Both the position numbers and the translations under genes were made by a program. This document shows, in pieces, positions 11,872 to 12,123 of a stretch of 12,197 nt of DNA. The first letter of the stretch is position 1. Every line of letters begins with the position of its first letter. Origin of the DNA: a bacterium (GTDB lineage Bacteria > Patescibacteriota > Minisyncoccia > Phycocordibacterales > VMEP01); the NCBI GenBank assembly GCA_030699625.1, contig JAUYLU010000055.1, positions 1 to 12,197 on the forward strand, in the 5' to 3' direction. The notes beneath the pieces are model-generated. The model was not told the origin of the DNA and did no database searches. It saw nothing but the letters and a program-made list of their open reading frames with translations.

Positions 11872-12123
11872 ATGGCACGTTATGGCAAACAATCGCAGGA
11901 GAAAGTGAGGAAGAGCATGCACGAATACAAGCGGGGGCGGCTCACGAGCGGCCGGAGCGGCAAAAAAGTGAAGCGCAGAGAACAGGCCATCGCCATCGGA
12001 CTTTCGCAGGCGCGCCGGAGCGGCCTGCCTGCGCCGCGTCTGCCTGTGCGTGTACGCACGCAGACAGGTCCGACGCGGCAGGCAAGCGCCAAGGTGCCGA
12101 AGAAAAGGTCGAAGAAACAATAA
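11872..12123 (+). CDS. Small basic DUF6496 protein carrying an in-frame palindromic insert
   Basis: This 83-residue, strongly basic protein begins MARYGKQSQEKVRKSMHEYK, continues RGRLTSGRSGKKVKRREQAIAIGLSQARRSG and ends AKVPKKRSKKQ. This is the DUF6496 pattern: a short soluble protein with a QAIAIGLS(E/Q)AR core normally followed directly by (G)AKVPKK. Here about 21 residues rich in Pro, Arg and Thr (residues 52-72, LPAPRLPV...TRQAS) stand between those two conserved parts. The DNA that encodes them is a long imperfect palindrome. Removing it would leave a reading frame of normal family length, about 62 codons. An AAGG lies three bases before the ATG. The gene follows the 47-residue membrane-protein gene by 42 bases. 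Its role is unknown; the positive charge could suit nucleic-acid binding, which is inference only. Confidence 0.8.
   Translation: MARYGKQSQEKVRKSMHEYKRGRLTSGRSGKKVKRREQAIAIGLSQARRSGLPAPRLPVRVRTQTGPTRQASAKVPKKRSKKQ
12023..12084. repeat. Palindromic insertion element within the DUF6496 gene
   Basis: A hairpin-forming sequence of about 60 bases lies wholly inside coding sequence. Paired segments from outside in are TGCCT 12026-12030 with AGGCA 12080-12084, GCCGCGTC 12033-12040 with GACGCGGC 12072-12079, CCTGT 12043-12047 with ACAGG 12064-12068, and GCGT 12048-12051 with ACGC 12054-12057. Small bulges separate them. GCCTGCC at 12023-12029 and GGCAGGC at 12077-12083 are exact inverted ends. The flanks carry AGCG at 12019-12022 and again at 12085-12088, a possible 4-base target duplication. 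Element plus one AGCG is 66 bases, exactly 22 codons, so the frame is kept. I see no second copy in this window. Confidence 0.7.

Follow-up and report, generated by a model that had tools for sequence, protein, structure and literature searches.

What is the palindromic segment that lies in frame inside a DUF6496 gene of this Patescibacteria-like genome, and does it belong to something that moves? The window, by which we mean the whole stretch of 12,197 nt that was analysed, holds the gene at 11872..12123 on the + strand. In the ORF list its frame of 83 aa reads straight through the segment, and the product matches Pfam PF20106 with an E value of 1.4e-18. The sequence-only reading of this DNA had proposed an in-frame element inserted in the gene, and both the continuing frame and the homologues described below bear it out.

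The insertion in the DUF6496 gene

The extent of the insertion was fixed by homologues. Among the best 119 of 7965 scored matches to the DUF6496 protein, 113 have an empty site, with exactly three residues, mostly RSG or RAG, between ...LSxAR and A/GKVP; the other six did not fit the empty-site search pattern. The window protein keeps these three residues as R-S-G and has 21 more. Thus, the insertion comprises 63 nt, LPAPRLPVRVRTQTGPTRQAS, at 12025..12087 (+ strand), between a GGC and a GCC codon; the 22 codons including an AGCG copy given by the sequence-only reading have to be corrected to 21. The inserted peptide is LPAPR-LPVRVRTQTG-PTRQAS, there is no stop codon between 12025 and 12087 in any of the six frames, and LPAP or QTG motifs occur in none of the 119 best homologues. 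Two long DUF6496 proteins (P0002 and P0003) were set aside because they look like domain duplications. The GCCTGCC and GGCAGGC ends and the AGCG on either side (12019..12022 and 12085..12088, + strand), which had been pointed out before, are indeed present. A target duplication of AGCG was rejected as improbable, because homologues retain the Gly codon that a 4-nt duplication would remove, and the match is therefore probably a coincidence.

The segment had also been described as one long hairpin. It does fold better than shuffled sequences (DNA z -3.96, with 0/200 shuffles as good; RNA z -2.36, with 6/200 as good), but it is made of two nested palindromes, A within C, and not of one. The left arm of C, CTGCCTGCGCCGCGT (12025..12039, + strand), encodes LPAPR, and its right arm, CCGACGCGGCAGGCAAGC (12070..12087, + strand), encodes PTRQAS; C is a 33-nt palindrome split by A, which is nested in its loop. 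Palindrome A (12040..12069, + strand) spans 30 nt, including a 2-nt bulge and a 4-nt loop, and encodes LPVRVRTQTG; its hairpin reads GCCTGT-GCGTG-loop-CACGC-(AG)-ACAGGY. In an alignment of 12 A copies from four genomes 23 columns are invariant, an invariance that is partly forced, as four of these copies were found by pattern.

Copies in the genome, the order and far lineages

A copy search, proposed along with the sequence-only reading, found further copies in the same genome, in its relatives and in far lineages. Neither of the two outcomes that were set to refute that reading, homologues sharing the segment or the lack of any other copy, was observed. In the genome itself a covariance model gave 42 rows at E<=5, which manual merging reduced to 22 loci at E<=0.114, C-type relatives with weak E values included. 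Half of these loci (11/22) lie in recognisable genes, namely those for DUF6496, bL28, MnmA, EF-P, NusB, a beta-lactamase-fold protein, RNase J, MiaA, a T2SS/PilB-type ATPase, UvrC and ClpB; the bL28 protein is below the Pfam and NCBIfam cut-offs, and its identity rests on homologues. Within the order, 24/297 genomes and 21/165 genera have a match at E<=0.01, and the hosts in these relatives include PrmC, GrpE, KhpB, RNase III, EF-Ts, an M1 peptidase, an M14 peptidase and a glycosyltransferase, among others; the M1, M14 and glycosyltransferase copies and those in RNase J of genome G106 are weak model matches (E 7e-4 to 0.01). The copies in MnmA, both RNase J genes, a response regulator (L070) and a GH3 gene (L105) precede the first domain, where translation from a later start codon could bypass them. 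N-terminal tails of RNase J carry palindromes in two genomes of the order, our own (L037) and G106 (L066). In a phylum-wide draw of 379 genomes only G000 and G207 match at E<=1e-4, both of this order. Copies of A occur several times per genome, in both orientations, and some are intergenic.

The distribution of A is far wider than the order. An exact-arm pattern matches at least 116 stretches in named GTDB genomes; among the matches listed, 80 titles represent 60 assemblies, 16 of which have two or more stretches, and more than 12 phylum-level names appear, from Planctomycetota and Verrucomicrobiota to an archaeon. Nearly all far-lineage assemblies are metagenome bins, so that single misplacements are possible. 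A further 41 stretches come from viral contigs. The idea of a comparable family in this lineage holds as far as copies in the order go, but the family is not confined to the lineage, it is composite, and its outer arms are those of a nuclease element (see below). In plasmids A gave two partial, weak matches and in phages none; the GIY-YIG domain of that element had no match in plasmids at 1e-10, nine phage records at 1e-8 that were all below 60% identity, and 0/23 viral-contig candidates confirmed. After these plasmid, phage and viral-contig searches we rejected plasmid or phage carriage of the element. The element strings were also sought in the literature, where, among the titles listed, the matches look like primers or unrelated matter.

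In the wide scans, the unit of A measures 27 or 30 nt in 143/166 copies; 139/166 copies are open in all six frames and the other 27 in five. Unit lengths divisible by three in genes are no evidence alone, since survivors must be in frame, but 91/166 copies fall outside any ORF of at least 100 aa.

Empty sites and insertion phase

Precise empty sites were found for other copies as well. In the EF-Ts gene of genome G286, A is an exact 27-nt insertion compared with seven DNA-aligned relatives of the genus, and three further relatives are empty by translation, giving ten empty sites in a genus of 13 genomes, where the remaining two had broken matches only. The bL28 protein has a 10-residue insertion relative to P0122, and in alignments to solved structures the insertions in EF-Ts, EF-P, MiaA and the T2SS ATPase stand at gaps or breaks. 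The bL28 loop before GGRVKIC, which has seven residues in 70/119 homologues listed, carries many different inserts (e.g. GLPRGKAG) in P0123, P0125, P0128, P0161, P0188, P0201, P0209, P0235 and P0239, and it appears to be a preferred place for other insertions.

Of 34 Pfam-supported in-gene copies of the short kind, here called miniatures, 32 could be scored for phase, and 26 of these start exactly between codons (p 3.5e-8), whereas six miss the favoured phase. This count, with all Pfam-supported cases, replaces an earlier one on 28 chosen genes (22/25 scored). The codon before the miniature is GGC in 11/32 and GAC in 5/32. Because most copies are open in other phases too, the phase bias points to one of three causes, namely descent from elements whose ORF requires this frame, a target preference, or selection on the peptide.

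A GIY-YIG nuclease between the arms of C

To judge from the sequences, a longer element, LPAPR-[GIY-YIG nuclease, about 80 aa]-RTRQAG, which is new here, has the arms of C at its ends. Fourteen kinds of host protein contain this long element in frame (MsrB, TrmD, cobalamin adenosyltransferase, MGMT, Elp3, HsdR/M/S and others). C arms can be recognised at the DNA level at the nuclease elements of three loci, L295, L340 and L134. The first 14 nt of the left C arm of the window are the left end of the L134 element, and the arm has one mismatch to L295 and one to L340; its right arm resembles the right ends ..GACGCGGCAGGCAGG (L295) and ..TACGCGACAGGCAGG (L340). At L134 the GIY-YIG domain and C arms are in frame in what looks like an HsdM-like protein, a host name that is our own reading of the sequence and has no NCBIfam match. 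The nuclease also occurs next to A, and at two loci the distance is 7 and 11 nt. At L295 the domain (PF01541) is inside MsrB, between the left C arm and A plus the right C arm; at L188 it lies in HsdR beside A, with no clear C arms, and in P0266 (HsdR) it adjoins A while recognisable C arms are absent. In L295, P0244 and P0262 the right C arm directly follows A, and all three show the architecture of the insertion in the window plus the nuclease.

A protein search with the L295 domain, restricted to 125-397 aa, a length limit that favours fusions, returned 29 proteins including the query. A second Pfam domain was found in 26 of them, of 13 kinds: MsrB, MGMT, RibD_C, cobalamin adenosyltransferase, glyoxalase, TrmD, Fic, QueC, HsdS, DUF1156, SET, HSDR_N and N6_Mtase, several of these being the names that we take the Pfam accessions to carry. 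Their inserts have the form LPAPRP-[domain]-(A)GRTRQAG, with an LPAPR-like left arm in 24/29 and a right RQAG in 22/29 proteins by pattern; some of the misses are truncated or variant proteins. In 20 aligned proteins the LPAPR and RQAG columns are at least 90% conserved. When the length limit was lifted, two close matches were obtained among 297 genomes (G286 and G168), both inside host genes, and the three strongest GIY-YIG matches in a six-frame scan of 1.68 Mb of loci were inside host genes too, with G286 counted in both searches. As a control for the arms, 16/30 GIY-YIG loci were readable by a pattern that misses L340 and L134; both arms occur at 1/16, namely L339, which is the same place as L295, and RQAG alone at one of the other 15 (L341). 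L341 (genome G215) has a distant GIY-YIG frame with 46% identity and one TAG inside, with the RQAG motif after it; it may be an older or degenerate representative of this kind.

The same site is reused in homologous hosts (four MsrB, four ATR, three MGMT, two TrmD and two glyoxalase proteins), which would be consistent with homing-type copying into empty alleles. In the TrmD protein P0256, the insert of 94 aa falls between residues 48 and 49 of chain 8byh. Frequent hosts are type I restriction-modification genes (HsdR, HsdM, HsdS) and DUF1156 genes (L188, L159, L134, P0260, P0261, P0263, P0266, P0267 and P0268). The domain is strongly conserved, and the 10-residue mean pLDDT of its structure model is 89-95. 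Its solved relatives are the UPF0213 proteins 1ywl and 1zg2 by sequence, the latter also by fold; these nucleases are short (96 and 107 residues) and were solved alone, whereas the inserted form is bordered by palindromic arms and, on either side, by its host protein. In a tree of the domain, whose support values are modest, some groups follow the host gene (TrmD, MGMT, glyoxalase, HsdR) and others mix hosts (an MsrB with an ATR copy), the picture expected from re-invasion combined with jumping. In the genome of the window, which is 87.8% complete, no close relative of the domain was found at E<=1e-10; it has four PF01541 matches, one of which is UvrC and another, which was inspected, an ordinary stand-alone protein.

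Full, miniature and empty alleles of elp3

The elp3 gene connects the two forms. In the genus of G168, 5/16 genomes have a near-full elp3 match. G168 itself carries the full element, 282 nt or 94 codons; in G665 the codon boundary used in G168 holds a 30-nt palindrome, GLPAASMAQAG; and G667, G236 and G205 are empty at that boundary. The EF-P gene of our own genome carries GLPAASNAAQAG, which is near-identical to the elp3 palindrome of G665. The three states at one site, together with the similar EF-P copy, tie the miniatures to the nuclease element.

Nesting of palindromes

Nesting is not peculiar to the window. A stands in another A at L003 and in C within an RNase III gene at L305, and at L074 (G048 C8) and L073 (G223 C5) A and a second palindrome, CCTGCTTGCGCG..CGCGCAGGCAAG, lie inside one another like Russian dolls. 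Among 152 A copies from named and viral contigs, 18 flank pairs reach a complementarity score of at least 8 compared with 2.3 expected (Mann-Whitney p 4e-11). Since the flanks are complementary far above chance, A tends to occupy hairpin centres. At the junctions the boundary is ambiguous by 1-4 nt (AGGC in tsf), and the two flanking pyrimidines of A copies show a weak correlation (p 0.003). In genome G286 (L285-L292), each of at least eight A copies occupies the loop of a longer palindrome that is common to them all (CTGGATTCC..A..GGAATGACAG), so that the composite itself seems to have been amplified. The A copies at L002, L006, L007, L011, L012 and L014, in three genomes, adjoin a recurrent TTAGAA / CCCGTTAGAAG-like repeat.

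Discussion

The segment in the window is, in our judgement, probably the miniature version of a mobile palindromic element that inserts in frame and has a GIY-YIG long form. The full form would measure about 282 nt, with the palindromic arms CTGCCTGCGCCGCG ... ACGCGGCAGGCAGG enclosing a GIY-YIG endonuclease frame open at either end. Its insertion points would fall between host-gene codons, frequently behind GGC or GAC, and the frame would let the element stay in the product as an unspliced internal domain. We infer from the reading frame that host products retain the inserted segment, and the nuclease likely cuts targets or hairpins and so drives the spread. Small palindromes of 27, 30 or 33 nt may arise by loss of the internal ORF or from mobilised bare arms, so that miniatures would either be moved in trans or be left as deletion scars; in the window, the related palindrome A would then have entered the loop of a C miniature. 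As miniature lengths are multiples of a codon and A has no stops in all or in five of six frames, the host gene survives. The exact insertions, the many copies, the empty sites, the arms shared with the GIY-YIG element and the full, miniature and empty states at one site are observed. Against movement driven by the nuclease count the searches of the window's genome that found no close GIY-YIG relative and the fact that no GIY-YIG element with A arms was seen; the co-occurrence of Y1 transposases with A and the six miniatures outside the favoured phase also speak against this picture.

If only the GIY-YIG element moved, the miniatures would be inert scars of in-place deletion between its arms, and the boundary shared by the elp3 miniature and the full element, as well as the phase bias towards the frame that the ORF needs, would follow directly. 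A, however, is present in several copies per genome, intergenic as well as genic and in either orientation, and it also nests in A, C and other palindromes; no A-armed full element was seen. We regard this explanation as unlikely, if worth keeping in mind. A further idea is that no enzyme is needed and that hairpin-driven template switching or replication slippage spreads the palindromes, since A sits at the centres of inverted repeats and junctions carry 1-4 nt repeats. Against this stand the identical arms in more than 12 phyla among the matches listed, where the arms were fixed by the search pattern, and the conserved GIY-YIG domain between C arms, which make it very unlikely.

If A were a palindrome of the REP type, mobilised by an IS200-like Y1 transposase (RAYT), and the GIY-YIG element a separate passenger that has similar palindromes, this would fit the REP-like hairpin of A, with its asymmetric 2-nt bulge and unpaired 5' tetranucleotide (a rule that we take in part from PMC3733652). 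PF01797 is also commoner in A-positive genomes (22/24 compared with 160/273 A-negative, Fisher p 8.6e-4) and is found in 10/10 strong A carriers. Nevertheless, the co-occurrence of Y1 and A may mirror mobile-element load, the weak carriers G114 and G153 have no Y1 match, and a RAYT flanked by the element, that is, a REPtron, was sought and not found in 53 Y1 loci (163 kb), which include all 22 Y1 matches of nine strong carriers and gave one weak A-like match, in a genome that is not A-positive. Because it also leaves the arms shared with the GIY-YIG element and the three elp3 states unexplained, we consider it improbable. Lastly, the insertion lies near the C-terminus of the DUF6496 protein, mostly beyond the Pfam match (3-56), where an ordinary variable loop of the family could be palindromic by chance. 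The homologue search, in which its motifs were absent, and the copy search, which found related DNA elsewhere in the genome and in other genes, refute this idea, and we give it practically no credence.

Inteins and intron homing endonucleases are gene-embedded elements that carry an endonuclease and reuse sites in conserved genes, and inteins obey a rule on the splicing residues at their junctions. An endonuclease likewise lies within the element in L188, L295 and the listed proteins, and is absent from the window copy. In contrast to those systems, the frame here would keep the domain in the product; no intein family is among the Pfam matches of the elements, whose inserts begin with LPAP and end with RQAG, and an Rfam scan of the window at gathering scores gave no match, group I and II introns included. 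As in MITEs, the ends of the miniature are common to a longer coding element (the C arms of L295, L340 and L134).

Rickettsia palindromic elements (RPEs), to which the segment had been likened, are palindromic repeats that lie in frame in unrelated genes and are translated as added segments, according to the excerpted texts of PMC10969869 and PMC3733652. The analogy is apt in behaviour, as judged from multi-copy palindromes in frame in unrelated ORFs and from precise empty sites, but not in size, since RPEs measure about 150 bp (PMC10969869, excerpt) and the units here 27, 30, 33 and 63 nt. RPEs come from Rickettsia, whereas the present palindromes occur in many phyla and have a nuclease-coding long form. 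The excerpts of PMC3733652 also describe GTAG/CGTC-tagged REPs as hairpins of 20-40 nt with an unpaired tag, some of them intragenic; according to them, CGTC REPs have no known dedicated transposase. A resembles them in hairpin size, in its unpaired tag and in having some copies in genes, but it has an 11-bp GC-rich stem and we found no link to flanking RAYT genes; REP tags are rare in it (CGTC in 9/166, TGTC in 4/166 and CCTC in 4/166 copies), with CGTC in 8/12 copies of the local alignment. Researchers have reported, in a survey (PMC11270868), GIY-YIG insertions in CPR rRNA genes that match neither group I nor group II introns, along with short ORF-less insertions, most insertions being at the tops or bases of stem-loops. 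They are possibly the equivalent of our element in rRNA, sharing the GIY-YIG domain and the short ORF-less forms; they lie in rRNA genes, whereas ours are in frame in protein genes and have palindromic arms. GIY-YIG insertions that lie in frame and have palindromic arms are not described in the titles and abstract openings of the open literature on Patescibacteria, REP, RPE and GIY-YIG.

On balance we lean towards a new mobile class, a GIY-YIG frame open at both ends between palindromic arms, which would insert between codons of conserved genes, remain unspliced in the host protein, re-invade the sites of homologues, jump between unrelated genes and spawn in-frame miniatures of 27-63 nt over more than 12 phyla.

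Palindromes that code for protein segments in frame are familiar above all from Rickettsia, and to our knowledge no mover has been established for them. The present case resembles theirs and has, in addition, a candidate autonomous partner, namely an endonuclease inside host proteins that shows no intron or intein signs. The spread of such palindromes thus becomes testable with one small protein and defined empty, miniature and full alleles. The element can also supply translation and repair proteins with new internal segments, and it calls for caution in domain annotation, as fusions with MsrB, TrmD or HsdR may reflect a parasite and not a function.
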